Shown here in pieces: positions 9,960 to 24,323 of a stretch of 64,000 nt of DNA. The position numbers were made by a program, and so were the translations under genes. The stretch is from Prauserella marina (GTDB lineage: Bacteria > Actinomycetota > Actinomycetes > Mycobacteriales > Pseudonocardiaceae): positions 4,018,501-4,082,500 of the forward strand of contig NZ_CP016353.1 of assembly GCF_002240355.1 (NCBI RefSeq), written 5' to 3'. Within the stretch, counting starts at the first letter, position 1; every line of letters begins with the position of its first letter. Under the pieces are notes generated by a model that made no database searches, had not been told where the DNA came from, and was given only the letters and a program-made list of their open reading frames with translations.

Positions 9960-10604
9960 TCAGGTCTGCGTGCCGCCGGGCCCGGTCAGCACCGACTTCG
10001 GTGTCTGCCCGATGGCGGCCATCGTCGTGACGGAGCCGAGTCCGGCGTAGTTGGGACCACCGAGCCGTGCGACCGGCGCCAGCGCCAAGGTGTCGATCTT
10101 CCCGTCGTGCAGCAGACCGTCGCGCACATGGAACGCCACCACCTCGCCGACGATGAACTCCGCTCCGGTCCGGCCGTACTCGGTCGCCGAGTGCAAGCGG
10201 CATTCGAGCGCGATCGCCGCCCGCGCGAGGCGTGGCACCGCGATCAGGTCGGAGCCTTCGGTGTCGAGCCCCAGCAGTTCGACCTCGCTCGTGGCAGGCG
10301 GGTGCTCGACCGCGCTGAGGTGGACGGCCTCGACCATCGACTCGTCGGGGATGTGCACCACGTACTCGCCGCGGTCGTGGATGTTGCGCCCGGTGTCCTT
10401 GCGGTGTCCGGCCTTGCGGCCGACGTTGATCCCGAGCATCGGCGGGGCGTTGGAGACGAACGTGAAGCAGCTGAACGGGGCGAGGTTCACCACGCCCTCG
10501 TCCGACAGCGTGGTCACCCACGCGATCGGGCGCGGTACGACGACGCCGGTGAGCAGCCGGTAGGTCTGCTCGGGGGTGAGTGAATCGGGAAGGACCGTGG
10601 TCAT
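9960..10604 (-). CDS. flavin reductase-like FMN-binding split-barrel protein
   Basis: A 214-residue protein of the flavin-reductase-like split-barrel family, which binds FMN and either supplies reduced flavin to a monooxygenase or acts as a reductase itself. The family signature is visible: residues 10-60 read T-P-E-Q-T-Y-R-L-L-T-G, then V-V-P-R-P-I-A-W-V-T-T-L, N-L-A-P-F-S-C-F and P-P-M-L-G-I. Its ATG overlaps the stop of the RraA-like gene (ATGA), so it is the last gene of a three-gene unit with the aldolase and the DapA-like lyase. No partner monooxygenase is seen nearby, apart from possibly distant P450s. The substrate is unknown. Confidence 0.85.
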   Translation of the reverse strand: MTTVLPDSLTPEQTYRLLTGVVVPRPIAWVTTLSDEGVVNLAPFSCFTFVSNAPPMLGINVGRKAGHRKDTGRNIHDRGEYVVHIPDESMVEAVHLSAVEHPPATSEVELLGLDTEGSDLIAVPRLARAAIALECRLHSATEYGRTGAEFIVGEVVAFHVRDGLLHDGKIDTLALAPVARLGGPNYAGLGSVTTMAAIGQTPKSVLTGPGGTQT

Positions 10605-11332
10605 CGGCGCACCTGCCCATTCTCCCGGTACTCGGCAAGCAGTTCCGGCGACGCGGGGTACAGGCCGCGCAGCGACGCGCCCGCGCGCACCTTCTCACCG
10701 ATGAACGATTCCAGGCCCTCCTGCTCCGCCGCGCCGTCGGCGACGTCTTCGGCATACTCCCTCGGCACCACGATCACACCGTCGTCGTCGCCGACGAGGA
10801 CGTCACCGGGATACACGGCGACCTCACCGCAGCCGATCGGCACGTCCTGCTCGACGACCCGGAGGTAGGCCCTGCTGACGTTGGCCGTGGCACCGGCCGA
10901 ATAGCACGGCAACCCGGTCCCGGCGAGCCCGGCGACATCGCGCAACCCGGCGTCGGTGACCAAGCCGCGCGCGCCGCGAACCCGAAGCCGCTCGGCGAGG
11001 ATGTCCCCGCCGGTGGCGGTGCGGCTCTGCCCGTGGCCGTCCACGACGAGCACCGCGCCCTCCGGCGTCGATTCGATCGCGTCGAACAGCGAGAGGCCAG
11101 GAGCGGGGCGGGTACCGGGAAGCAGTCCGTCGAGGTCTTCCCGCGCGGGGATCGTCCGCAGCGTCCACGCCGCGCCGGCCAGGCGTTGCCCTGGGCGCAG
11201 TGGGCGCACTCCGGCGAGGAATTGATCCCGCAAGCCCCGCCGCAGGAGCACGCTGGCGATCGTGGCGGTGCTGACACCTGCCAGCAGCCGCTCGACGCGG
11301 GCGGGAACCGGGGCAAAGGTCGTCGGGGTCAT
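10601..11332 (-). CDS. RraA-like/HMG-aldolase family protein
   Basis: A 243-residue protein of the RraA / 4-hydroxy-4-methyl-2-oxoglutarate aldolase superfamily. The core motif R-G-A-R-G-L-V-T-D-A-G-L-R-D carries the Arg-Asp pair that binds pyruvate and divalent metal in true aldolases, and G-D-V-L-V-G-D-D-D-G-V-I-V-V-P is the family's C-terminal hallmark. This makes an active class II pyruvate aldolase or oxaloacetate decarboxylase more likely than a ribonuclease regulator. It is coupled by ATGA overlaps on both sides, to the DapA-like gene upstream and the flavin reductase downstream. The longer frame upstream of 11332 is a shadow of the DapA-like gene. Confidence 0.87.
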   Translation of the reverse strand: MTPTTFAPVPARVERLLAGVSTATIASVLLRRGLRDQFLAGVRPLRPGQRLAGAAWTLRTIPAREDLDGLLPGTRPAPGLSLFDAIESTPEGAVLVVDGHGQSRTATGGDILAERLRVRGARGLVTDAGLRDVAGLAGTGLPCYSAGATANVSRAYLRVVEQDVPIGCGEVAVYPGDVLVGDDDGVIVVPREYAEDVADGAAEQEGLESFIGEKVRAGASLRGLYPASPELLAEYRENGQVRR

Positions 11333-12237
11333 CGCGCGCCCTCCAGCAGACCCCACGCCTCGGCCGCCGCGCCGACCCGGCGCCTGCCCTGCTCCGAGAG
11401 GGGCACGAGCGGCGCGCGCAGCGCGGGGCCGATCAGCCCCGCCCGCGACATCAGCCATTTGACCGCGGTCGGGTTGGTTTCGGTCAGCACCACGTCGTTG
11501 AGGTCGAGCAGCCGGAAGTGCAGCTCGCGCGCCTCGTCCCAGTGGCCTTCCGCGACGGCGTCGTACAGCCGGGCGATCTCCCTGGGCACGAGGTTCGCGG
11601 TGACACTGATGAACCCGGCGCCGCCGATGGCCAGCAGCGGGAAGCACAGCGCCTCAAGCCCTGAGAACAACAGGAAATCCGGCCCGGTTTCCTTGAGCAC
11701 GAAGTTGGCGTGGGCGAAATCCGGGCTCGCCTCCTTCATGCCGACGATGTTCGGCACCTCACGCCACAGTCGGCCCACCGTCTCCGGCGCGATCTCGACG
11801 CCGGTGCGGGAGGGAATGTTGTAGATCAGAATCGGGATGTCCACGGCCTCGGCCACGTCGCGATACCACGCGTAGAGACCGTCCTGGGTGGGCCGGGCGT
11901 AGTAGGGCACGATCACCAGCGCGGCGTCGGCACCGGCCTCGGCGGCGCGCCGGGTGATCTCGATCGTGTCAGGCAGCTGGTGCGTGCCGGTCCCCGGGAC
12001 GAACGGCAACCTGCCGTCGAGGGCTTCGGCCGCGGCGTCGATCATCCGAAACCGCTCGTCGAGCACCAGCGCACCCGGCTCGCCTGTGGTGCCGGTGACC
12101 GAGACGCCGTGGCTGCCGACCTCGACGTGGTGGTCGATCAGGCGCCGCAGCGTGGGCAGGTCGAGGCCACCTTCCGCGTCGAACGGCGTCACCAGCGGGG
12201 CGATCGAGCCACGAAGGCGGGTTGTCAAGTCAGCCAT
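11329..12237 (-). CDS. DapA/N-acetylneuraminate-lyase family aldolase or dehydratase
   Basis: A 302-residue TIM-barrel enzyme that works through a Schiff base with a 2-oxo acid. Expected residues are present: G-T-T-G-E near residue 48, the catalytic Tyr in I-L-I-Y-N-I-P-S-R-T-G and the Schiff-base Lys in I-V-G-M-K-E-A-S. Members outside lysine biosynthesis cleave or dehydrate sugar acids and aromatic-pathway keto acids. First gene of the operon with an RraA-like aldolase and a flavin reductase, and divergent from a LysR gene only 34 bp away, so it is likely catabolic. The ATG at 12237 has GAGAGGA at the right distance; a TTG one codon earlier is less likely. Confidence 0.88.
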   Translation of the reverse strand: MADLTTRLRGSIAPLVTPFDAEGGLDLPTLRRLIDHHVEVGSHGVSVTGTTGEPGALVLDERFRMIDAAAEALDGRLPFVPGTGTHQLPDTIEITRRAAEAGADAALVIVPYYARPTQDGLYAWYRDVAEAVDIPILIYNIPSRTGVEIAPETVGRLWREVPNIVGMKEASPDFAHANFVLKETGPDFLLFSGLEALCFPLLAIGGAGFISVTANLVPREIARLYDAVAEGHWDEARELHFRLLDLNDVVLTETNPTAVKWLMSRAGLIGPALRAPLVPLSEQGRRRVGAAAEAWGLLEGAR

Positions 12238-12271
12238 CAAGTGTTCCTCTCGGGGTGGTTACGATCGCGGA

Positions 12272-13189
12272 ATGGACGTCGAGGTGGCGGTGCTGCGGTC
12301 GTTCGTCGTGCTCGCCGACGAACTGCACTTCGCCCGCGCCGCCGCGCGCCTTCACATCGAGCAACCCGCGCTCAGCCAGCGGATCAAACGGCTGGAGCAG
12401 CGGATGGGCGTGCAGCTGTTCGTCCGGAACAGTCGCAACGTGCGGCTCACCCCGGCCGGGCAGGAGTTCGCCGTCGAGGTGGCCGACGTCCTGCGCCGCC
12501 TGGACGCGGCCGTCGGGCGCGCGGTCCGCACCGCCGAGGGCACGCGCGGAACCGTCCGGCTCGCCTACACCCTCAGCGTCGGCTACGAGACGCTGCCGGT
12601 GCTGCTCGGCGAGCTGGAACGGGCGCTGCCCGACGTCACCGTCGAGGCGGTCGAACTGTGGGAATCGGACGTGCTCTCCGGTGTGTTGCGCCGGGACTGG
12701 GACGCCGGCCTCGTCCGCTACGATCCGGACCATCCGGACGTCACGGCGCTGTTGTTGCGGCACGAGTCGCTGGTCGTGGCCATGCCGGAGACTCATCCGC
12801 TCGCGGGACAAGGCGAGGTGAAGCTGGCCGAGCTGCGCGGCGAACGGTTCGTCACCACGCCCGTCTCGCTCGCCCCCGGCTACCAGGCGCTGCTCGACGA
12901 GGTCTTCGACGCCGCCGGTTTCGAGCCGCACACGGTGCGCAACACGGTGCCAGGAAACCGGATCATGGCTTTGCAGCGGCAGAAGAACGCCGTGGCGCTG
13001 CTGCCCGCCTCGGCTGGACTCACCCATCCCTCCGGTATCGCGTTCGTGCGAGTCGTGGACGACTTCGCCCACCTTCCGGTACGGCTCGTGCACCGGCGAG
13101 ACGCGGAGCCCTCGGTGACGCTGTTCGCCGAGACACTCCAGCGCGCGGCGCGCGAGCAGGACTGGCTCGCGCCCTTCAGCTCTCGTTGA
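12272..13189 (+). CDS. LysR-family transcriptional regulator
   Basis: A 305-residue LysR regulator. The winged helix-turn-helix is at residues about 5-62 (F-V-V-L-A-D-E-L-H-F-A-R-A-A-A-R-L with Q-P-A-L-S-Q-R-I), followed by a two-lobe effector domain. ATG 12272 is only 34 bp from the oppositely oriented DapA-like gene and no clear Shine-Dalgarno is visible, which suggests a leaderless or very short-leader transcript. The last 14 bases overlap the convergent MFS gene. It probably controls both flanking catabolic operons. The short gap contains GATCGCGG (12263-12270), the same eight bases as the arm of the palindrome at 15878-15912. Confidence 0.9.
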   Translation: MDVEVAVLRSFVVLADELHFARAAARLHIEQPALSQRIKRLEQRMGVQLFVRNSRNVRLTPAGQEFAVEVADVLRRLDAAVGRAVRTAEGTRGTVRLAYTLSVGYETLPVLLGELERALPDVTVEAVELWESDVLSGVLRRDWDAGLVRYDPDHPDVTALLLRHESLVVAMPETHPLAGQGEVKLAELRGERFVTTPVSLAPGYQALLDEVFDAAGFEPHTVRNTVPGNRIMALQRQKNAVALLPASAGLTHPSGIAFVRVVDDFAHLPVRLVHRRDAEPSVTLFAETLQRAAREQDWLAPFSSR

Positions 13190-14513
13190 GCGCACCACGC
13201 GTCTCCTTGGCTCGCAGGGTCAGGGCCAGGAAAACCGCCGAAAGCACAGCGCTCACCACGATCAGCGTCGGGATGATCGAGGAGACTCCCGCGCTGATGC
13301 CGGTCACCAAGGTCGGCAGCAACCCGCTCAGCCCGTAGCCGACGTTCCACGAAAACGCCGTGGCCGTGGAACGGATCTCGGTGGGGAACAGCTCGTTGAC
13401 AAAGATGATCAGCGGAGCGCTGATCGCTCCCGAGGCCATCACCATCACGGCGCCGCACACCAGCAGCAGCCACTCCCCCGGCCCGGTCGACATCACCAGG
13501 TACAGCCCGGGGATCAGCACCAGACAGGCCGCGCCGGAGACGAGGAAGACCTTCCTGCGCCCCACGCGCTGGCTCAGGTGCCCGCACACCACCGCGACCG
13601 CCGCCGACAGCACCACGTTGACGATCAGGAACAAGCTCGCCGAGTCCTGGGACATGTGCAGCACCTGCTTGTAGACCGTCGGCAGGATGCCCGTGGTGAG
13701 GTAGTAGGGCGCCGACGCGGTGAACACGATGGCGACGGCGGCCAACGTCACGGTCCGCCACCGGCGGGAGAACAGTGCCCTGCCTGGCTGGATCTTCGCC
13801 GGGGAGGTGCCGCGGGCGGCTTGCCGTGCCACCCACGCCGGAGACTCCTCGACCCTGCGCAGCACGAGGTAGTTCACGATCGACCCCGCGAGCGCGACCA
13901 CGAACAGCACCCGCCAGCCCCAGTCGGCGAACGCCGCCTGCCCGAGCAACGCGCCGAGGGCGATCACGAGCAGGTTGATCACCACGACGGCCAAGCTCGC
14001 GCCGCCACCCTTGATCAAGCCGGCCGCCATGCCTCGCCAGCGTTCGGGCAGCGTCTCGGTGGCGAGCGTGTGCGTCGAGGCCGTGATGCCTCCCACGAAC
14101 ATGCCTTGCACGATGCGCAGCACGATCAACAGCACCGGCGCGGCGATCCCGAGCGTCGCCACGCCCGGCAGTAGACCCATGAGCGCCGTCGAAACCCCGG
14201 CGCCGATCACGGCCAGCATCATCGCGGGCCTGCGGCCCGCCCGGTCGGCGAAGGAACCGAACACCAGTGCCCCGAGCGGCCGGACGACGAGGCTCACCGC
14301 GAAGGTCGCGTACGTGGCGGTGAGCCCGACCAGCGATCCGGCCTCCGCGGGGAAGAACGCCGCCGACACATACGACGCGACGTGCAGAATCACCAGCAGG
14401 TCGTACATGTCGACGGTCCAGCCGAGCACCGCGGCCCCGAGTGCCTTGCGGTGGGCCCGCGACAGCCGCTCGGCTCGTGGCGCGCGCGCCGCCGTCACAC
14501 CGGGCTCACTCAT
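13176..14513 (-). CDS. MFS transporter, metabolite:H+ symporter type
   Basis: A 445-residue, 12-helix major facilitator permease. The N-terminal L-G-W-T-V-D-M-Y-D-L-L motif is typical of the aromatic-acid and MHS symporters (the Asp in helix 1 couples protons), and the loop 2-3 signature appears as G-S-F-A-D-R-A-G-R-R-P. Likely imports the organic acid degraded by the neighbouring enzymes. The ATG at 14513 overlaps the amidohydrolase stop by eight bases, so it is the third gene of the RidA-amidohydrolase-MFS unit. The in-frame region upstream belongs to the amidohydrolase in another frame. Confidence 0.92.
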   Translation of the reverse strand: MSEPGVTAARAPRAERLSRAHRKALGAAVLGWTVDMYDLLVILHVASYVSAAFFPAEAGSLVGLTATYATFAVSLVVRPLGALVFGSFADRAGRRPAMMLAVIGAGVSTALMGLLPGVATLGIAAPVLLIVLRIVQGMFVGGITASTHTLATETLPERWRGMAAGLIKGGGASLAVVVINLLVIALGALLGQAAFADWGWRVLFVVALAGSIVNYLVLRRVEESPAWVARQAARGTSPAKIQPGRALFSRRWRTVTLAAVAIVFTASAPYYLTTGILPTVYKQVLHMSQDSASLFLIVNVVLSAAVAVVCGHLSQRVGRRKVFLVSGAACLVLIPGLYLVMSTGPGEWLLLVCGAVMVMASGAISAPLIIFVNELFPTEIRSTATAFSWNVGYGLSGLLPTLVTGISAGVSSIIPTLIVVSAVLSAVFLALTLRAKETRGALNES

Positions 14514-15402
14514 CGTGCTCACCGCTGGAAAAGCCGAACAGTCGCCGTGGATTCTCGACCAGGATCCGGTGCCGTGCCTCGGCTTCGGGCGCATAACGCG
14601 CCAGCAGGTCGAGTAGTTCGCCGTCGTTGGGCACCGGCCCCGGATGCAGCGGGTGGGGCCAGTCCGTGGCCCACAGCACGCGGCCGGGCGCTCGCTCCAC
14701 ATAGGTACGGGCGTAGGCGGTGGCGTCGTCCCACGGGTACCCGGTGACCGACCGGCGGTCCCCATTGGACAGCATGATCCACCAGTTTCCTCGTGCCAGC
14801 AGATCGAGCACGTGCCGGAAGTGCGGGTCGTCGAGCCCGTGCCCGTACTGCAACGGTCCCATGTGGTCGATCACGACATCGGTCTCGACGTCAGCCAGCA
14901 GCGGAGTGACCTCGCGCGGATCGATGCCGTTCATGTGCAGCTTGAGATGCCAGCCCAGCGGAACCACGCGCTCGGCGGTCCGCCGCACCTGTTCCGGCGT
15001 GGGCAGCGCGTTCTTCAGCTTGGGGTGGAAGTTGAAGCGCGCGCCGCGGACACCGGCCTGGTGCATGCGGTGCAACTGGTCGTCGTCCACCGAGTCGTCG
15101 ACGACACCGCAGCCGCGGTAGGAAGGTCCCGCGATCCGCAGTGCCTCGATCAAGGCACCGTGGTCGGTGCCGTATGCGGTGGACTGCACGATGACGCCGC
15201 GCTCGATGCCGAGCGTCTTGTGCATGCGCAGCATTTCCTCCACGGTCGCCTCTGGCACGACGTAGGCCGCGTCCGGTTTCACCGGAAATCGCCGGGTGTC
15301 ACCGAAGATGTGCACCTGGCTGTCGCACGCCCCTTGCGGGACGGGCAACCGGGGTTCGCGCGGTGACGGGTCGAAGAGTGCGTAGTCGGGCCGCTCAGTC
15401 AT
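14506..15402 (-). CDS. LigI-like amidohydrolase (2-pyrone-4,6-dicarboxylate lactonase family)
   Basis: A 298-residue amidohydrolase-superfamily TIM barrel closest in layout to LigI and sulfomuconolactone-type lactonases. It opens with C-D-S-Q-V-H-I-F-G, where the first His of the usual H-x-H pair is Gln, as in metal-independent members. Later conserved blocks are L-H-M-N-G, V-I-D-H-M-G-P, and W-A-T-D-W-P-H-P near residue 245, where the Asp is the expected general base. Probably hydrolyses a lactone or pyrone intermediate of aromatic-ring breakdown; the substrate is inferred only from family. The start ATG overlaps the RidA stop by eight bases (ATGACTGA). Confidence 0.85.
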   Translation of the reverse strand: MTERPDYALFDPSPREPRLPVPQGACDSQVHIFGDTRRFPVKPDAAYVVPEATVEEMLRMHKTLGIERGVIVQSTAYGTDHGALIEALRIAGPSYRGCGVVDDSVDDDQLHRMHQAGVRGARFNFHPKLKNALPTPEQVRRTAERVVPLGWHLKLHMNGIDPREVTPLLADVETDVVIDHMGPLQYGHGLDDPHFRHVLDLLARGNWWIMLSNGDRRSVTGYPWDDATAYARTYVERAPGRVLWATDWPHPLHPGPVPNDGELLDLLARYAPEAEARHRILVENPRRLFGFSSGEHDE

Positions 15403-15796
15403 CACGACCACCGGTCACGAACGCGAGCACCTCGCACTGGACGAGGATGTGCGGCCTGGTGGTGCCGATGCTCACCTGCCGGGCGGGCCGTGAGGCCGGA
15501 TCGGGAAACACAGCGCACCACTGTCTGTTCAGCTCGTCGCGGTGCTCCGGCGCGGCGAGCCGCACGGAGAACTTGAGCGCGTCGTCGAGGCCGCCCCCGG
15601 CCTTGGCGAGGATCGCCGCGACCCGCTCGAACATCCGGGTGGTCTGCTCGCCGAAGTCCGAGGGGAACTCCTCCGGAGCGCTTCCCCTGCCACCACCGTG
15701 CACGGCACCGGTGGCGACGAGGCCACCGATGCGGCTCGCTGCCGGGACGGGGTTCTCGTGGGAGAAGCCGTCGAGATGAATGCTGCGCCTGCTCAC
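15395..15796 (-). CDS. RidA/YjgF-family protein
   Basis: A 133-residue member of the RidA family of small trimeric proteins, many of which hydrolyse reactive enamines and imines or enol intermediates. Recognisable blocks are F-S-H-E-N-P-V-P-A-A-S-R, the central V-A-A-I-L-A-K-A-G-G-G-L-D-D-A-L-K-F-S-V-R-L, and R-P-A-R-Q-V-S-I near residue 105 (the Arg binds carboxylate in active members). GTG start at 15796 with AAGGGG upstream. First gene of a unit with the LigI-like amidohydrolase and the MFS permease, whose promoter and palindrome lie upstream. Confidence 0.88.
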   Translation of the reverse strand: MSRRSIHLDGFSHENPVPAASRIGGLVATGAVHGGGRGSAPEEFPSDFGEQTTRMFERVAAILAKAGGGLDDALKFSVRLAAPEHRDELNRQWCAVFPDPASRPARQVSIGTTRPHILVQCEVLAFVTGGRDD

Positions 15797-16993: not shown

Positions 16994-18430
16994 TCAGTGC
17001 GCGATGGCGACCGAGCGCGTGTTCAGGTATGCCTCCATCGCCTCGGGGCCGCCCTCGGTGCCGTAGCCCGAGTCCTTCACACCACCGAACGGCAGCTCGG
17101 CCGAGGGCATGGCCGGCATGTTCACCCACAGCATGCCGACCTCGACCTTGCGGGTCAGCTGGTCGGCCGTGGCCAGCGACCTGGTGAAGGCGTACCCGGC
17201 CAGGCCGTAGGAGAGCCGGTTGGCTTCGGCGATCGCGTCACCCAGGTCCTGGAAGCCGCGGATCGCCGCGACCGGGCCGAAGGGCTCCTCGTTGAACAGC
17301 TTGGCCTCGGCCGGCACGTCGTCGAGCACGGTGGGAGCCCAGAAATTACCGGCGTCGCCGATGCGCTCGCCGCCCGAGAGCACCGTCGCGCCGCGCTCGA
17401 CGGCATCGGCATACAGGGCCGACATCGCGTCGATACGCCGGGAGTTGGCCAGCGGGCCCATCTCGGTGCCCTCCGCCAGCCCGTCGCCGACGTTGAGGCC
17501 GGTCGCGAACTCCGCGAGCGCCTTGGAGAACTCCTGGCGCACGGAGTCGTGCACGAGGAATCGCGTCGGCGAGATGCAGACCTGGCCCGCGTTGCGGAAC
17601 TTCGCCCTCGACATCGCCTTGACGGCGAGCTCGACATCGGCGTCCTCGCACACGATGACCGGCGCGTGCCCGCCCAGCTCCATCGACACGCGCTTCATCT
17701 GCCTGCCTGCCAGCGCCGCGAGCTGCTTGCCGACCGCGGTCGAACCGGTGAAGGTGATCTTGCGGATCGCCGGGTGGGCGATCAGGTACTCCGAGATCTC
17801 GGCCGGATCGCCGTACACCAGCGCGAGCACCCCGGCGGGCAGACCGGCGTCCTGGAAGGCGCGCACGAGCGCCGCCGGGCTGGCCGGAGTCTCCTCCGGT
17901 GCCTTGACGACCATCGAGCAGCCCGAGGCCAGACCCGCTCCGAGCTTGCGCACCACCTGGTTGATCGGGAAGTTCCACGGCGTGAAGGCCGCGACCGGGC
18001 CCACCGGGTCCTTGACGACCAGCTGCTGGATCGCGGGGTTCGCGCGGTGCGGGACGGTGCGGCCGTAGACCCGGAAGCCCTCCTCGGCGAACCAGTCGAT
18101 GATGTCGGCGCCCGCGAGAATTTCGCCCTTGGCCTCCACCAGCGGCTTGCCCTGCTCGCGCGTCATCAGCGCGGCGATTTCATCGGCGCGGGCGCGCAGC
18201 AACTCGGCTGCCTTGCGCATGATCTTGCTTCGCTGGGCGGGCGTGTAGTCACGCCACACCTCGAAGCCGCGCCGCACCGAGTCGGCGGCGCGGTCGAGAT
18301 CCTGCCTGCTCGCGTGGGCCACGCGGCCGATGACCTGGCCGCTGGCCGGGTTCCGCACGTCGATCGTGCGGCTCTCCGCCGCATCCAGCCACTGATCGTC
18401 GATGAAGAGCTGGGTGTCTGGATAGGTCAT
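16994..18430 (-). CDS. NAD(P)-dependent aldehyde dehydrogenase (succinate-/ketoglutarate-semialdehyde type)
   Basis: A 478-residue aldehyde dehydrogenase. F-T-P-W-N-F-P begins the cofactor domain, F-T-G-S-T-A-V-G is the nucleotide loop, M-E-L-G-G-H-A-P holds the general-base Glu and N-A-G-Q-V-C-I the nucleophilic Cys. Overall it resembles GabD and 2-oxoglutarate-semialdehyde dehydrogenases. It is the last gene of the sugar-acid operon, where it could oxidise the aldehyde released by the KDPG-type aldolase or 2-oxoglutarate semialdehyde of a Weimberg-type route. The start at 18430 has GGAGGGAGG upstream. A 122-bp gap separates it from the transporter gene. Confidence 0.9.
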
Positions 18431-18552: not shown

Positions 18553-19968
18553 CTACGTGCCCGCGACCTTGATGCCGAACACCTCCGACACCGTGTAGAT
18601 CGCCAGCAGGAAGATCGCGATGCTGCTGACGACGAACGCGGCGGTGAGCCAGCGGTTGCGTTTGAAGCGCGCGTCCACCTCCAGCGTGCGCAAGCGCCAC
18701 ACGGCGACGAGCACGGCAAGCAGGAAGATCCCGGTCGCGATCGCGCCGATCTGCATCATCACCAGCGGCGACTGGACGAACAGGAACATCACCAGCCACA
18801 GCACGGGCAGGGTGAAGGTGAAGATCTTCAGCACTCGCGCGCGAACCGTGACGTCGTGCCAGTCGATCACACCGAGCAACCCGAGCGTGTTCGTCCACAG
18901 CCGGGGGACGGCGGCCGCGGAGGCGATGTTGGTGGAGAACAACACGACGATGGCACCGAACAGGAACAGGATCTCGGCCCACGGGCCAAGCGTGTCGGTG
19001 TAGATCCGCGACACCGTGGTGATCACGGCGTTGCCCTCGGGCACCAGGCCCTGCGGGTGCAGCACGCTCGCGCCCACCACGTAGAACGACAACGTGGTGA
19101 CCGTGCAGATGAGCCACGACACGAACACGTCGAGCTGCATCACCTTGATCCAGCCCTCGGCACGCTTGGCCCGCTCCTCGGTGCCGTCGTCGGGACCGGT
19201 CCAGCGCGCGTAGCCCTTCTCAAGGCACCAGTAGGTGTAGTTGGTCATGTCGTCGGCTCCGACACCGGTCGAGCCGAACATGGCCACGGCAAGGCCGACC
19301 GTGCCCGCCGGAATGGCGAAGCTCAGTCCGTCGGCGAAGTCGCCCCCGCTGTAGGAGAACGGGGTGAACGGCAGCACCAGCACGATCGCGACCGTGCTGA
19401 GTGTGAAGATCGCGACCGACCACGTGGTGAGCGCTTCCACGACGCTGTAGCGGTTGCTGCGCAACAACCCGATCGTCAGTGCGGTGATCACAACCGCCCA
19501 CACAGCCAGCGATCCTGAGCTCAGCGACTCGCCGACGATGGGAAACAGGATCGAACACGCGGCGGCCGTTCCGCCGATCACGCCACCACGCTGGAAGTTC
19601 TTCGCGAGATCGAGTCCGATCCAGAGCCAGTTGATCCAGCCCATGCGGCCGATCTTGGGCGGGACGGTGGAGTACCCGGCGAGCGCGGTCTTGCCGTTGA
19701 GAATCGCCCAGCGGGCCAGCTCCATCTGGACCCAGACCTTGACCGTCGCACCGACGATCACCATCCACAGCAGGACGAATCCCGCGCGGGCACCAAGCGA
19801 GGTCGTGACGATCAGCTCGCCCGATCCCACCACCGAGGCCGTCAGGATGATGCCGGGACCCAGGTAGCGCAGCCGACCGCGCAATGTCGTCGGCGCTTCC
19901 CTGGTGTCCTCGGCCCGGAGCCGGTAGGCGTCCTCAAGCTCCGCCCTCGGCGCGTCTTGGGTTGACAT
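18553..19968 (-). CDS. Nramp-related membrane transporter lacking the canonical metal-binding motifs
   Basis: A 471-residue, about 11-helix protein with the Nramp (MntH) fold pattern: an N-terminal L-G-P-G-I-I-L, a G-x-x-x-L-L-W segment and a conserved G-R helix order. The metal-binding D-P-G-N of helix 1 is replaced by G-S-G-E, and the helix-6 M-P-H region reads [10 protein letters not shown]. It should therefore not transport manganese or iron in the usual way. It lies between the KDPG-aldolase and aldehyde dehydrogenase genes of a sugar-acid operon and no other transporter is present there, so it may carry the sugar acid itself or a metal complex of it. This is inference. Start ATG 19968 with AAGGAAAG-like purines upstream. 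Confidence 0.85.
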
Positions 19969-20025: not shown

Positions 20026-20643
20026 CTAGCGGGCCGTGGCCACGAGGCGGCGAGCCTGCTCGGTGAGCGCGGTGGTGTCGGCGAGGTCGCCGAGCAACTG
20101 GACCCCGACGCCGACGCCCGCGCAGCCCGCGTCGAGGCATTCGCGCGCCAGGTCCGGTCCGACACCGCCCGTGGCAAGCATCGGCACCTCGGGCAGCGGG
20201 CCCTTGAGCTGACGTATGTAGTCCGCTCCGACCGGAGCGATCGGGAACACCTTGACCAGGTCGGCGCCGAGCCGGGCAGCGCGGACGACCTCGGTGGCGG
20301 TGAACGCGCCGGGGATCACTCCGAGGCCGAGTTCCTTGGCGCGCTCGATCACGACCTCGTCCACATGCGGGCAGACGATGAAGCGCGCGCCCGCTTCGGC
20401 GGCGCGGGATACGTCGTCGCGGGTCATCACGGTGCCCGCCCCGACCGGCATGTCGTCGCCGTACTTCTCGCGCAGCGCCGAGATCGCGGCGAACGGCTCG
20501 CCCGCGTTGAGCGTCACCTCGAAAAGACGGATTCCTTGCGCGTACAGCAGCTCGGTGAGTTCGAGGCACTGCCGCCGCGACTGTCCTCTGTAGATCACCA
20601 TCGCGCGGTGCTCAAGCACCCTGCTCAGGACGTCGTTGGCCAT
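20026..20643 (-). CDS. KDPG/KDPGal-type 2-keto-3-deoxy acid aldolase
   Basis: A 205-residue class I aldolase of the Eda/DgoA family that cleaves a 2-keto-3-deoxy sugar acid (phosphate) to pyruvate plus an aldehyde. The catalytic Glu lies in L-F-E-V-T-L and the Schiff-base Lys in L-V-K-V-F-P, with the G-A-G-T-V strand and the T-G-G-V-G phosphate-binding loop between and after them. The start at ATG 20643 has GAGAGGAA upstream; the 30 codons before it in frame are noncoding. It follows the IlvD/Edd-type dehydratase by 28 bp, so dehydration and cleavage are encoded together. Confidence 0.9.
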   Translation of the reverse strand: MANDVLSRVLEHRAMVIYRGQSRRQCLELTELLYAQGIRLFEVTLNAGEPFAAISALREKYGDDMPVGAGTVMTRDDVSRAAEAGARFIVCPHVDEVVIERAKELGLGVIPGAFTATEVVRAARLGADLVKVFPIAPVGADYIRQLKGPLPEVPMLATGGVGPDLARECLDAGCAGVGVGVQLLGDLADTTALTEQARRLVATAR

Positions 20644-20671: not shown

Positions 20672-22402
20672 TCAGAGATGCCTGCGGGGCACCGCGTGCC
20701 CGCGCCTGCCCTTGAGGAAGTCGAAGTCGGCACCGGTGTCGGCCTGGCGGACGTGCTTGCGGTACAGCCACGCGTAACCGGAACCGGTGTCGTCCGCGGG
20801 GGCGAGTTCGGCCGCCCTGCGGCGCAGCTCGTCCTCCGGCACGTCCATGTCGATGCGGCGCCCCGGCACGTCGAGCGTCACGGTGTCGCCGGTGCGCAGC
20901 AGCGCGAGCGGCCCTCCGGCCGCCGCCTCGGGCGCGACGTGGAGCACGACCGTGCCGTAGGAGGTGCCGCTCATCCGGCCGTCGGTGATGCGGACCATGT
21001 CCCGCACGCCCGCGTCGAGCAGTTTCTTCGGGATCGCCAGGTTGCCGATCTCCGGCATTCCCGGGTAGCCGGACGGCCCGGCGTTGCGCACCACGAGCAC
21101 GGTCGAGGCTTCGACAGGGAGGCCAGGCGAGTCGGCCTGGTCGTGGTACTCCTCGATCGTGTCGAAGACCAGCGCCGTCCCGCTGTGGCGCATCAGTTCT
21201 CCGGACGCGGCCGACACCTTGATCACGGCGCCGTCCGGCGCGAGGTTTCCGCGCAGCACGGCGGTGTGGCTACCGGCCTCGCGCAGGGGCTCGGCGCGGC
21301 TGCGGATCACCTCGGGTCCCCAGTTGCGCGCGTCGGCGCAGTTGTCGCCGAGGCAGCGGCCGGTGACGGTGGCGGCGTCGGTGTGCAGCAGGTCGCCCAG
21401 TTCCTTGATCACCGCGGGCACGCCGCCCGCGTAGGCGAACTCCTCCATCAGGAACCGCCCTGAGGGCAGCAGGTCCACGAGCAGCGGGATCTGCCCGGCG
21501 AGCGTGTCGAAGTCGTCGAGCGCGAGGTCGACCTCCGCGCGGCCCGCGATCGCGAGCAGATGCACCACGGCGTTGGTTGAGCCGCCGATGGCCGCGTTCA
21601 CTCGGATCGCGTTCTCGAACGACCTTCGGTCCAAAATGGACGACGGGGTCAGGCCCTCCTCCACCATCTCCACGACGCGGCCGCCCGCCTGCTCGGCGAT
21701 GCGGTGGCGTTGCGCGTCCACGGCGGGAATGGCGGCACTGCCTGGCAGTGAAAGGCCCAGCGCCTCGGTCAGGCACGCCATGGTTGAGGCCGTGCCCATC
21801 GTGGTGCAGTGCCCCGCGCTGCGCGAAAGGCACGCCTCCGCGATGGAGAAGTCCTCTTTGCTCATCCGGCCGGCGCGGACCTCTTCGCTGAACTGCCACA
21901 CGTGCGTGCCGGATCCGGCGTCGCAGCCGCGGAACTTGCCGTTGAGCATCGGGCCACCGGTGACCATCACGGCGGGCAGGTCGGCGCTGAGCGCGCCCAT
22001 CAGCTGCGCGGGCACCGTCTTGTCGCAGCCGCCGAGCAGCACGACGCCGTCGAGCGGGTTGGCCCGCAACGTCTCCTCCACGTCCATCGACATGAGGTTG
22101 CGGAACAACATCGCCGACGGCCGCATCAGCGTCTCGCCGAGCGAGATCGTCGGGAACTCCAGCGGAACACCGCCCGCCATCAGCACGCCGCGCTTGACCG
22201 CCTCGGCGACCTGCCGCAGATGGGCGTTGCAGGGTGCCAGGTCCGACCAGCTGTTGCAGATCCCGATCACGGGCCGCCCGTCGAACATCGACGCCGAATA
22301 CCCCTGGTTGTACATCTTCGACCGGTGAACGAAGCCGAGCTTGCCGTCGAGGCCGAACCACGCGGCGCTGCGCCGGGGTGACCCGTCGTTGTCTGGTTGC
22401 AT
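20672..22402 (-). CDS. IlvD/Edd-family sugar-acid dehydratase
   Basis: A 576-residue iron-sulfur dehydratase. Cluster Cys motifs are visible as I-C-N-S-W-S-D-L-x-P-C, G-G-C-D-K-T-V-P-A and S-A-G-H-C-T-T-M-G-T-A-S-T-M, with the substrate-binding Ser-Gly in R-M-S-G-T. The pentonate dehydratases (L-arabinonate, D-xylonate) have this length and N-terminal layout (R-S-x-x-W-F, M-Y-N-Q-G-Y-S), which fits better than branched-chain IlvD. It produces a 2-keto-3-deoxy acid for the aldolase downstream. Its promoter carries two TACATGCA operators (22434-22482). Confidence 0.88.
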   Translation of the reverse strand: MQPDNDGSPRRSAAWFGLDGKLGFVHRSKMYNQGYSASMFDGRPVIGICNSWSDLAPCNAHLRQVAEAVKRGVLMAGGVPLEFPTISLGETLMRPSAMLFRNLMSMDVEETLRANPLDGVVLLGGCDKTVPAQLMGALSADLPAVMVTGGPMLNGKFRGCDAGSGTHVWQFSEEVRAGRMSKEDFSIAEACLSRSAGHCTTMGTASTMACLTEALGLSLPGSAAIPAVDAQRHRIAEQAGGRVVEMVEEGLTPSSILDRRSFENAIRVNAAIGGSTNAVVHLLAIAGRAEVDLALDDFDTLAGQIPLLVDLLPSGRFLMEEFAYAGGVPAVIKELGDLLHTDAATVTGRCLGDNCADARNWGPEVIRSRAEPLREAGSHTAVLRGNLAPDGAVIKVSAASGELMRHSGTALVFDTIEEYHDQADSPGLPVEASTVLVVRNAGPSGYPGMPEIGNLAIPKKLLDAGVRDMVRITDGRMSGTSYGTVVLHVAPEAAAGGPLALLRTGDTVTLDVPGRRIDMDVPEDELRRRAAELAPADDTGSGYAWLYRKHVRQADTGADFDFLKGRRGHAVPRRHL

Positions 22403-22521: not shown

Positions 22522-23658
22522 TCAGTCCCCGGTCGCGACCTCGGTGTCGGTCACCGCGGCGACCGCGATCTCGTCGAGGCGCGCGCCGAGCCCCGGCAGG
22601 TCCGGCAGATCGATGAGCCCCTTCTCCGGCACGGGTGGACCGACCAGCAGCGGGTCGCGCAACGGGTTGTCCCTGACGTCGTACTCGAACCCGGCTACCG
22701 GGCCGGACATCGCGGCCAGCTGGAGCGTCGCCGCGAAAGCCACCGCGCCGCCGTAGAGGTGGGGCAGCACGGACTTGCCGTTGGCGCCGGCGAGCTGGCA
22801 GATCGTGAGCGCCTCGGTGAGCCCGCCCGTCTTGGCGAGGTCCGGCTGCAGGACCGCGATCGCCGGCGAGGCCGCGAAGTCGCGGAACTCGGCGACACCG
22901 TAAAGGTTTTCCCCCGTCGCGATCGGCAGCCCGGTGCGGCGGTGCAGCTCCTCAAGCCCGCCGAGCGGGTTGCCCCGCAATGGCTCCTCGATCCACTCGA
23001 CACCCGCGTCGGCGAGCAGCGGCGCCATGGCGACGGCGTCGGCGAGGTCCCACGCCTGGTTGGCGTCGGCGTAGAGGGCCACGTCCCTGCCGATCGCCTC
23101 GCGCGCCTCGGCGAGATTACGCTCGTCGGTGGCCCGGCCGAAGCCGAGTTTGACCTTCACCGCCGGGTACCCTCCGGCAACGCACTCGCGTGCCTTCGCG
23201 GCGACGTCAGCGGGACCGAGACTGCTGGCATAGACCGGAATCCGGTCGCGGACGCGCCCACCGGCCAGCGCGCTCACCGCCGTACCAGCCCGCTGCCCCG
23301 CCAGATCCCACAGCGCGAGGTCGGCACCACTGATGGCCTGCCGGATCGGCCCCGGCGCGCCCCATTGCCTTCCCAGCGGATCGAGCCGCGAGCACAACCG
23401 CTCGTGCAGTGCCGAGATCCGCGTCGAGTCCTGGCCGAGCAGCAACGGGAACACACCGTCGCGCAACGTCGCGACGCGTTCGTGGGCCGCCCACGGCGGA
23501 TAGTTGATCCAGCTTTCGCCTCGGCCGGTGAGACCGTCGTCGGTCGTCACCTCCACGAGCACGATCGAGCGGTCGCGCAGCGGGGAGAACGACATCGCGA
23601 TGCCGTCTCCGACGGGCGCCCGCAGCACACGGAGGCGGGCGCCGACGATGCGGCTCAC
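22522..23658 (-). CDS. mandelate racemase/enolase-superfamily sugar-acid dehydratase
   Basis: A 378-residue enolase-superfamily enzyme of the mandelate racemase group. It carries the K-x-K motif A-V-K-V-K, metal ligands D (Y-A-D-A-N-Q-A-W), E (I-E-E-P) and E (T-G-E-N), and the Asp-His region of L-Q-P-D-L and L-P-H-L. These features fit acid-sugar dehydratases of the gluconate/galactonate or glucarate type, and also racemases. The GTG start overlaps the GntR stop (GTGA). With an IlvD/Edd enzyme in the same cluster, the two dehydratases may act on different epimers or on successive steps. Confidence 0.87.
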   Translation of the reverse strand: MSRIVGARLRVLRAPVGDGIAMSFSPLRDRSIVLVEVTTDDGLTGRGESWINYPPWAAHERVATLRDGVFPLLLGQDSTRISALHERLCSRLDPLGRQWGAPGPIRQAISGADLALWDLAGQRAGTAVSALAGGRVRDRIPVYASSLGPADVAAKARECVAGGYPAVKVKLGFGRATDERNLAEAREAIGRDVALYADANQAWDLADAVAMAPLLADAGVEWIEEPLRGNPLGGLEELHRRTGLPIATGENLYGVAEFRDFAASPAIAVLQPDLAKTGGLTEALTICQLAGANGKSVLPHLYGGAVAFAATLQLAAMSGPVAGFEYDVRDNPLRDPLLVGPPVPEKGLIDLPDLPGLGARLDEIAVAAVTDTEVATGD

Positions 23659-24323
23659 TCGGCGGTCTCGGTCTGCTGGAGCAGCACGGTGCGCAGGCGG
23701 AAGATGTGGGCGCGGGCGGCCTGCTCCGCCGCCGTGGCGTCGCCGGACTCGATCGCGGTGAGGATCGCGCGATGGTCGTCGATCGCCTGCCTCGGACCCG
23801 CGGTCACCGTCGTGGTGCGCATGGCGAGCCGCACCTGGGTCTGCACGTCGTCGAGCAATCGCACGAGCTCCGGGTTGGCCGCGGCCTCGCGAATGAGGCG
23901 ATGGAACCGGAGGTCGGCCTCGGTGCTCGCGGCCAGGTCGGCGGTGCGCATCGCGGCCTCGTGCTCGTCGAGCGCCTCCTTCAGCGCCCGCACCAGCTTG
24001 CGGCCCGCGTTCTCGACGGCCAGCCGCGCGGCCAGCCCTTCGAGCACCTCGCGGATTTCGTAGATGGAGGCCAGCTCGGCGGTGCCGACCCGCGCGACGA
24101 CGGCACCGCGGCGCGGTTCCTCACGAGCCAGCCGCTCCTGCACGAGCCGCAGCACCGCGTCGCGCACGGGGCTGCGGCTGACCTCAAGCGACTCGGCGAG
24201 CGCGGGCACACTCAGGCGCGCGCCGGGAGCCAGCTCGCCGGTGAAGATCATCTCGCGCAACCGTTCATAGACCGCGTCGGCGACCCTCGTGCGCGTCGCG
24301 GTCTTCTCGTTCACTCCGACCAT
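23655..24323 (-). CDS. GntR-family regulator, FCD (FadR) subgroup
   Basis: A 222-residue regulator. The winged helix (V-Y-E-R-L-R-E-M-I-F-T-G-E-L-x-P-G, then E-S-L-E-V-S-R-S-P-V-R-D-A-V) is followed by an all-helical FCD effector domain with metal-binding positions D-L-R-F-H, D-D-H-x-A-I and the final A-R-A-H-I. Such proteins usually bind hydroxy or sugar acids and repress sugar-acid operons. It heads the leftward cluster, and its leader contains TTTACATGCA, the same site found twice in the dehydratase promoter, so autoregulation is likely. Confidence 0.92.
   Translation of the reverse strand: MVGVNEKTATRTRVADAVYERLREMIFTGELAPGARLSVPALAESLEVSRSPVRDAVLRLVQERLAREEPRRGAVVARVGTAELASIYEIREVLEGLAARLAVENAGRKLVRALKEALDEHEAAMRTADLAASTEADLRFHRLIREAAANPELVRLLDDVQTQVRLAMRTTTVTAGPRQAIDDHRAILTAIESGDATAAEQAARAHIFRLRTVLLQQTETAE

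Follow-up and report, generated by a model that had tools for sequence, protein, structure and literature searches.

The window (the whole stretch of 64,000 nucleotides analysed here, from Prauserella marina) carries at 18553-19968 a gene whose product is related to the Nramp transporters. The gene lies on the minus strand and is read from 19968 to 18553, the earlier note having given no strand; frame 1 of the plus strand over 18553-19968 holds two stops and gives no Nramp-like translation. The protein matches the Pfam Nramp family PF01566 at 50.6 bits (cut-off 29.8), its sole Pfam family match, with none to an amino-acid permease family, and the NCBIfam model NF037982 at 107.5 bits (cut-off 50), while the NCBIfam MntH model NF001923 reaches 24 bits against a cut-off of 430. 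With the Pfam match above its cut-off and an Nramp-like LeuT fold in the predicted structure (pLDDT 89.0, pTM 0.88), the protein is a member of the Nramp family in the wide sense. The gene and its neighbours are as follows.

16994..18430, minus strand: aldehyde dehydrogenase, last gene of a putative unit (PF00171; an alternative start would extend it to 18469)
18553..19968, minus strand: GSGE-type Nramp-related transporter gene P0001, 471 aa (PF01566, NF037982, homologue alignment, structure model)
20026..20643, minus strand: KDPG/KHG-family aldolase (PF01081; an alternative start would extend it to 20733)
20672..22402, minus strand: IlvD/Edd-family sugar-acid dehydratase (PF00920)
22522..23658, minus strand: MR_MLE (enolase superfamily) sugar-acid dehydratase-like enzyme (PF13378, PF02746)
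23655..24323, minus strand: GntR/FCD regulator, first gene of the putative unit (PF00392, PF07729)

Running from the regulator through MR_MLE, IlvD/Edd, aldolase and Nramp-like genes to the aldehyde dehydrogenase, these six genes are presumably co-transcribed, given their common strand and their spacing, with gaps of -3 to 123 bases. The IlvD/Edd protein matches NCBIfam PRK06131 at 868 bits (cut-off 539) and the L-arabinonate dehydratase model at 818 bits, under that model's cut-off of 882. Pfam bears out the earlier placing of the transporter between an aldolase and an aldehyde dehydrogenase, both on its own strand, and likewise the view that this sugar-acid pathway otherwise lacks a transporter, since none is found among the other five genes of the unit. 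About 2.5 kb past the aldehyde dehydrogenase there is an MFS transporter (13176-14522), which belongs to another gene set. That set, at 9960-15796 on the same strand as the Nramp-like gene, is a separate catabolic one with a RidA-like protein, an amidohydrolase like 4-sulfomuconolactone hydrolase, the MFS transporter and a DapA-family aldolase, to which reading of the sequence adds two more enzymes and an opposite LysR-like gene.

Residues at the metal site

The metal site was mapped by aligning a 54-sequence profile with solved structures, and its conservation was followed through a homologue set of 73 proteins scoring above 300 bits, the window protein included. The codons concerned are listed here.

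19816..19827, minus strand: codons of G48-S49-G50-E51, the helix-1 site that is DPGN in metal Nramps (coordinates from the reading frame; alignments)
19579..19581, minus strand: codon of Val130, opposite the helix-3 Glu (alignments to structures)
19240..19269, minus strand: codons of residues 234-243, the helix-6 break T-G-V-G and then A-D-D-M-T-N (alignment, model)

The G48-S49-G50-E51 stretch aligns opposite D-P-G-N of DraNramp and D-A-G-G of EleNRMT. The Asp of the helix-1 DxxN motif has been called universal among SLC11 proteins, and EleNRMT is severely impaired in transport when it is mutated (PMC8806188). At the position of this Asp all 73 proteins have Gly, and the Asn is replaced by Glu. 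GSGE itself is kept in 72 of the 73, the window protein among them, the one exception being GAGE (locus L100), and such retention argues against a chance variant. Val130 lies opposite the helix-3 Glu (E134 of DraNramp) in the alignments to DraNramp, BfraNramp and EleNRMT, and this position is V, I or L across the homologues; in BfraNramp the helix-3 Glu binds Mn (PMC12873925). A MAFFT alignment with a gap in helix 3 had set Lys123 opposite the Mn-binding Glu, a placement contradicted by three HMMER structure alignments, all of which give Val130, so that we claim no charge reversal at this position. The helix-6 break of the model comprises residues 234-237 (T-G-V-G), followed by A-D-D-M, within the sequence S-T-G-V-G-A-D-D-M, and the alignment has no MPH around this break in any of the 73 proteins. 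Helix 1 of the predicted structure has no DSSP break. The replacement of helix-1 D-P-G-N and the absence of the helix-6 M-P-H, as originally read from the sequence, are thus both upheld, and with DPGN, MPH and the helix-3 Glu all missing manganese transport would indeed seem unlikely.

Invariant positions in a 50-row alignment (A3) are G48, G50, E51, K77, K123, Q126, T234 and G235. The acidic residues E51, D239 and D/E240 are retained in the homologues and could form a cation site; EleNRMT, with its DxxG, illustrates that a rebuilt metal site is possible (PMC8806188).

The best structural match of the model is DraNramp (6c3i; Z 38.0, rmsd 2.8, 382 residues aligned), with EleNRMT at Z 34.9, and the amino-acid carriers SLC7A10 (Z 28.9), ApcT (27.1) and AdiC (3l1l; 26.6) fall below most Nramp rows. 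Foldseek and VIA rankings alike put metal Nramps above amino-acid carriers, the top 15 VIA rows being metal-moving Nramps or EleNRMT and the YcsG model coming 16th. This ranking was set aside as functional evidence, a shared fold showing no function, and the predicted fold fits both a metal and an organic-acid cargo. By hhalign, a profile of the clade (A5, 45 rows) matches eight AdiC-type carriers with 85.7% probability (E 5.5e-6), and in this profile alignment the helix-1 GSG of the GSGE clade stands in the same register opposite the AdiC-type GSG. A Gly amide of the helix-breaking GSG motif bonds the substrate carboxylate in AdiC, and xCT has GAG in place of GSG (PMC5877779).

Relatives and their operons

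The 73 loci comprise 16 and 51 from other genomes, five from plasmids and that of the window, the sampling outside Actinomycetota consisting of plasmid records. Genes were called by script and clustered, and cluster representatives were named by Pfam, which leaves some neighbours without a name. Left out of the set were proteins from Microscilla (L035, 42% identity), Halocatena (L036, 31%) and Skermanella mucosa H6, and further distant rows, which like that of Halocatena score below 300 bits. The Microscilla locus gave no usable genes because the gene caller had been trained on mostly high-GC loci; the Halocatena protein lies near a mannonate dehydratase, a DapA-family gene and an aldehyde dehydrogenase, all on the opposite strand. 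Matches at E <=1e-20, some of them distant, occur in 9 of 396 genomes across the phylum and in 53 of 249 genomes of the family. An 87-row tree, with a long-branch warning for its distant rows, assigns the window protein to a clade of 13 members (100/100), and these are exactly the loci of operon type T1 described below.

A sugar-acid catabolism gene lies within three genes of the transporter at 47 of the 73 loci, which represent 15 of the 21 groups formed at 80% identity and fall into four operon designs. T1 has an IlvD in 13 of 13 loci and a KDPG aldolase in 12 of them. T2 (20 loci) is built on a 2-hydroxyacid dehydrogenase, with an HpcH aldolase in 19 and an AKR in 19, some loci adding a four-carbon acid sugar kinase, DeoR and PdxA. 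T3 (seven loci) combines MR_MLE with PfkB and/or a mannitol-type dehydrogenase, and T4 (seven loci) has a UxaA altronate/galactarate dehydratase. At L089, L090, L093 and L098 a second, very different Nramp-related gene (cluster c32, for example L093:5489-6784, with W-L-G-T-G-D-F in helix 1) accompanies the GSGE gene, either inside its sugar-acid operon or adjacent to it. The Rubrobacter-family loci L128 and L131 have the GSGE gene in one operon with genes of xanthine-dehydrogenase type and those for OHCU decarboxylase, uricase and HIUase, a setting that hints at a purine or a compound like urate as substrate, and L100 adjoins lactate-utilisation (LUD, LutB-type) genes and an IlvD.

Counted around the 21 group representatives, genes of the sugar-acid set make up 30 of the 82 neighbours within two genes and 2 of the 139 at a distance of seven genes or more, a comparison that is partly circular because the set was chosen from these same neighbourhoods. 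Unguided Pfam tallies for the same representatives, which are limited to the 25 most frequent families out of 97 and 96 and so could hide single metal-related neighbours, agree with it: within two genes (82 proteins) they list 2-hydroxyacid dehydrogenase eight times, MR_MLE and HpcH four times each, IlvD and KDPG aldolase three times each and UxaA twice, and six to seven genes off (76 proteins) none of these six is among the families with at least two members, PdxA and a DapA-family protein being found there once each.

At the remaining 26 of the 73 loci no gene of the sugar-acid set lies within three genes. Fifteen of them form one Pseudonocardiaceae clade (L101-L109, L111-L113, L116, L117, L119), 14 of which have a molybdo-hydroxylase within six genes on the other strand; six loci of this clade share a neighbouring family of 440 aa (c22), whose representative has no Pfam match. 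Four are cut at a contig end, and the last seven are L129 and L130, the purine loci L128 and L131, L100, L033 and L034. At L129 and L130 the genes upstream are for arginine and those downstream encode a methyltransferase, ArsR and an ArsC-like protein; L111 and L117 have genes for ArsR, SBF and an LMW phosphatase nearby. In the Roseomonas marmotae plasmid locus L033 a 55% identical homologue stands where a siderophore NRPS cluster ends, and L034 adjoins an SLC13 gene. The earlier note had proposed to look for metal-homeostasis genes beside the relatives: their neighbours are mostly genes for the catabolism of sugar acids or other organic acids, with siderophore (L033) or arsenic-type genes (L111, L117, L129, L130) at five loci among the neighbours that were named.

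The claim that no related operon contains a further importer was abandoned, as genes for ABC-transporter ATPases precede the operon at 10 of the 20 2-hydroxyacid dehydrogenase (T2) loci, where a second importer may thus exist. Orthologues of the window aldolase (at least 71% identical) occur in 9 of the 249 family genomes and lie directly beside the GSGE transporter in all nine; the transporter, at 79% identity or more, is present in ten family genomes, the tenth (L020) having no aldolase gene called alongside. Eight further aldolase loci (48-53% identity) have no Nramp gene among the genes called, and their nearby carriers are MFS proteins in six and GntP in two, although the near-duplicates L168/L169 (MFS 100% identical) and L164/L165 (GntP 98%) make these fewer than eight independent cases. 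Alongside an IlvD 75-77% identical to that of the window, five of the eight carry GH31, SDR and SMP-30 lactonase genes plus an MFS sugar porter; in two others SDR and SMP-30 are accompanied by GntP, and the last has an MFS porter. A sugar or glycoside would seem to be the starting compound of the five MFS operons. The window operon has neither sugar dehydrogenase nor lactonase and therefore appears to start from the acid itself, a starting point that points to the acid as the cargo of its transporter. Phylum-wide matches of the IlvD (15 loci, with an IlvD called in all except L155) were rejected as a displacement test because 14 of the 15 have no window-type aldolase within five genes, and the aldolase search was used in their place.

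Operon type is also reflected within the transporter. Among the 64 loci of assigned type (nine of the 73 being left out), a screen for positions more than 90% uniform within types and with at least four residues between types retained 2 of 471, 243 and 358, of which 243 is the more uniform. Residue 243, six residues past the helix-6 break of the model, is Asn in 13 of 13 T1 loci, Thr in 19 of 20 T2 loci and Tyr in six of seven T3 loci, and Phe at five of seven UxaA loci, both purine loci and all 15 loci of the molybdo-hydroxylase clade, a correlation with operon type that is confounded by common descent.

Proposed cargo of the GSGE clade

The loss of the metal ligands and the recurrent place in catabolic operons lead us to favour, with a probability of roughly 0.7, the reading of the window protein as an importer of whichever small hydroxy-acid is broken down by its own operon, in this case a sugar acid. 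Backbone amides of the helix-1 GSG would bind the carboxylate of the substrate, in the manner of AdiC-type carriers, and the rest of the molecule would be selected by residues around the helix-6 break, notably 243. Import would follow an alternating-access cycle of the LeuT type, perhaps coupled to H+ or Na+. The dehydratase would then convert the acid to a 2-keto-3-deoxy acid, which the aldolase would split into pyruvate and an aldehyde, the latter being oxidised by the aldehyde dehydrogenase. As a sequence-based proposal, the sugar-acid or organic-anion carrier of the earlier note gains from the lost metal site and from the mostly sugar-acid neighbours, and is weakened by the five loci with siderophore or arsenic-type genes. 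Co-occurrence with the aldolase, the MFS or GntP carriers in its stead at the eight other aldolase loci, the AdiC-type GSG, the pattern of residue 243, the precedent of PxpT (below) and the lack of Rfam elements at the 20 loci searched also count for an acid importer. The 26 loci with no sugar-acid gene close by, the ABC ATPase genes at T2 loci, the Mn reports for YcsG and MumT, the conceivable cation site, the rebuilt site of EleNRMT, the metal Nramps as nearest folds, the dependence of the GSG match on a profile alignment and the helix 1 without a DSSP break count against it.

A divalent-metal importer (Mn2+ or Mg2+) with an altered site, feeding the metal-dependent enzymes of the operon, we consider unlikely. 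MR_MLE enzymes use Mg2+, the protein is an Nramp homologue with metal-moving Nramps or EleNRMT filling its 15 best VIA rows, the acidic E51, D239 and D/E240 are kept, and the same five loci speak for such a role. There are also precedents in catabolic operons, where YcsG (MntG) of B. subtilis, at first annotated for 5-oxoproline, was later named a Mn importer (PMC10448178) and MumT is a reported Mn importer (PMC5050338), in both cases by raised cellular Mn (PMC10448178, PMC5050338), and these make operon context by itself indecisive. However, the universal Asp and the helix-3 Glu are both lost, the operons vary in their enzymes and have acidic organic substrates in common, and the related pathways described above have MFS or GntP carriers nearby instead. 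Moreover, one of the six Nramp-family genes that this genome holds above the Pfam cut-off is already a canonical DPGN/MPH Nramp (L009). Canonical Nramp/SLC11 proteins such as MntH and DMT1 share PF01566 and the fold with the GSGE clade, which lacks their DPGN, MPH and helix-3 Glu. The Mg2+ transporters of the NRMT type, including EleNRMT, share with it the fold and the missing Met/His ligands, whereas they keep the Asp, as DxxG with TxxA/T (PMC8806188), and the helix-3 Glu in place of the Gly48, Glu51 and Val130 of the GSGE clade. Many NRMTs, not all, come with an M-box riboswitch or an MgtE-N-domain partner (PMC4072509). A search of 20 GSGE loci (87,615 bases) for Rfam elements, riboswitches included, found no match, which argues against a metal importer, and Pfam found no MgtE domain in the nine scanned neighbour proteins of the window.

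A carrier of metal-hydroxyacid complexes, or a metal-coupled symporter, with the acid at GSG and a cation at E51/D239/E240, is less likely still. It would combine the APC-type GSG with the invariant or near-invariant acids near the helix breaks, and it could reconcile both phenotypes reported, in conflict, for the PxpT/YcsG group, namely Mn and 5-oxoproline (PMC10448178, PMC13274462); the same acids could equally serve H+/Na+ coupling or structure. PxpT of C. glutamicum is GntR-controlled and its deletion stops growth on 5-oxoproline, its authors not excluding metal transport (PMC13274462). Like the GSGE clade, PxpT, YcsG and MumT are Nramp-family proteins in catabolic operons. Their substrate is 5-oxoproline, or Mn according to the YcsG and MumT reports, and the PxpT/YcsG group belongs to another clade as far as the IGPGF paralogues of the same genome can tell, MumT being outside this sequence comparison. 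These paralogues (L012, 5496-9105; L013, 6489-8614) adjoin a LamB_YcsF (PxpA) gene and carry IGPGF in helix 1, and their identity to the window protein is 18% and 15%; L012 has pxpABC-type neighbours, and one of the two has, in addition, a D-Glu cyclase and a domain of carboxyltransferase type, as 5-oxoprolinase operons do. No pxpABC gene is among the nine scanned neighbours of the window gene. A further paralogue (L011:7057-9154), with M-S-A-G-D-L in helix 1, lies directly downstream of a GntR/FCD regulator.

An exporter, or a sensor-like protein, for pathway intermediates or toxic aldehydes would be expected to show an identical gene layout; we hold it improbable, as characterised Nramps import and as enterobacterial xylonate and rhamnonate operons pair dehydratase and aldolase with an uptake transporter (PMC12445098). 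That the gene is a bystander, its neighbourhood due to chance or hitch-hiking, would suit the 26 of 73 loci without the association but is hardly credible in view of four separate operon designs, the partly circular 30 of 82 near against 2 of 139 far, and the unguided tallies.

Our preferred reading of the protein as an acid importer is in part anticipated. That such a carrier is undescribed for the Nramp family, as the earlier note had it, is too broad a statement, PxpT and YcsG having been genetically linked to 5-oxoproline (PMC13274462, PMC10448178); it stands for the GSGE clade itself, our literature search, beyond which most subscription papers lie, having found no publication on this sugar-acid clade or its uptake among the matches listed. 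PMC12445098, which had come up as a possible report on Nramp and sugar acids, was rejected as such, Nramp there being a mouse genotype. Nramp-related proteins without metal motifs are a known paraphyletic and mostly uncharacterised set according to a 2026 preprint (PMC12873925), the legend of which singles out a 'G-motif 3' group and describes those beyond this and the NRMT-like one as 'entirely uncharacterized'; judged from the text of that preprint, the GSGE clade probably falls among them. A link to non-metal carriers has been suggested for the Nramp outgroup (PMC4072509). The idea of organic-acid-linked Nramp-family proteins is therefore not wholly new, and the GSGE sugar-acid clade would be the new part.

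The APC amino-acid carriers (AdiC, ApcT, LAT) share with the GSGE clade the LeuT fold and the in-register helix-1 GSG, and differ from the window protein in its family match, PF01566. The GSGE clade may represent organic-acid carriers at the Nramp stem, with a GSG carboxylate site shared with amino-acid carriers and DPG as a later metal-binding replacement, a tentative view to which we give somewhat less than even odds. Were it true, metal transport by Nramps would have arisen from an organic-anion carrier, and one subfamily would have switched among sugar acids, lactate-like acids and urate through changes at the helix-6 break. In 40 plasmid records the product at the best-matching place is named 'Nramp family divalent metal transporter' or 'divalent metal cation transporter', seven of these being at least 40% identical to the window protein and the rest distant. 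If the clade carries sugar acids, pathway models relying on this family name would be led astray, and a class of importers for aldonates and acids akin to them would have escaped notice. The origin of metal transporters from organic-solute carriers would at the same time become testable, with the exchange of GSG for DPG and residue 243 as defined positions.
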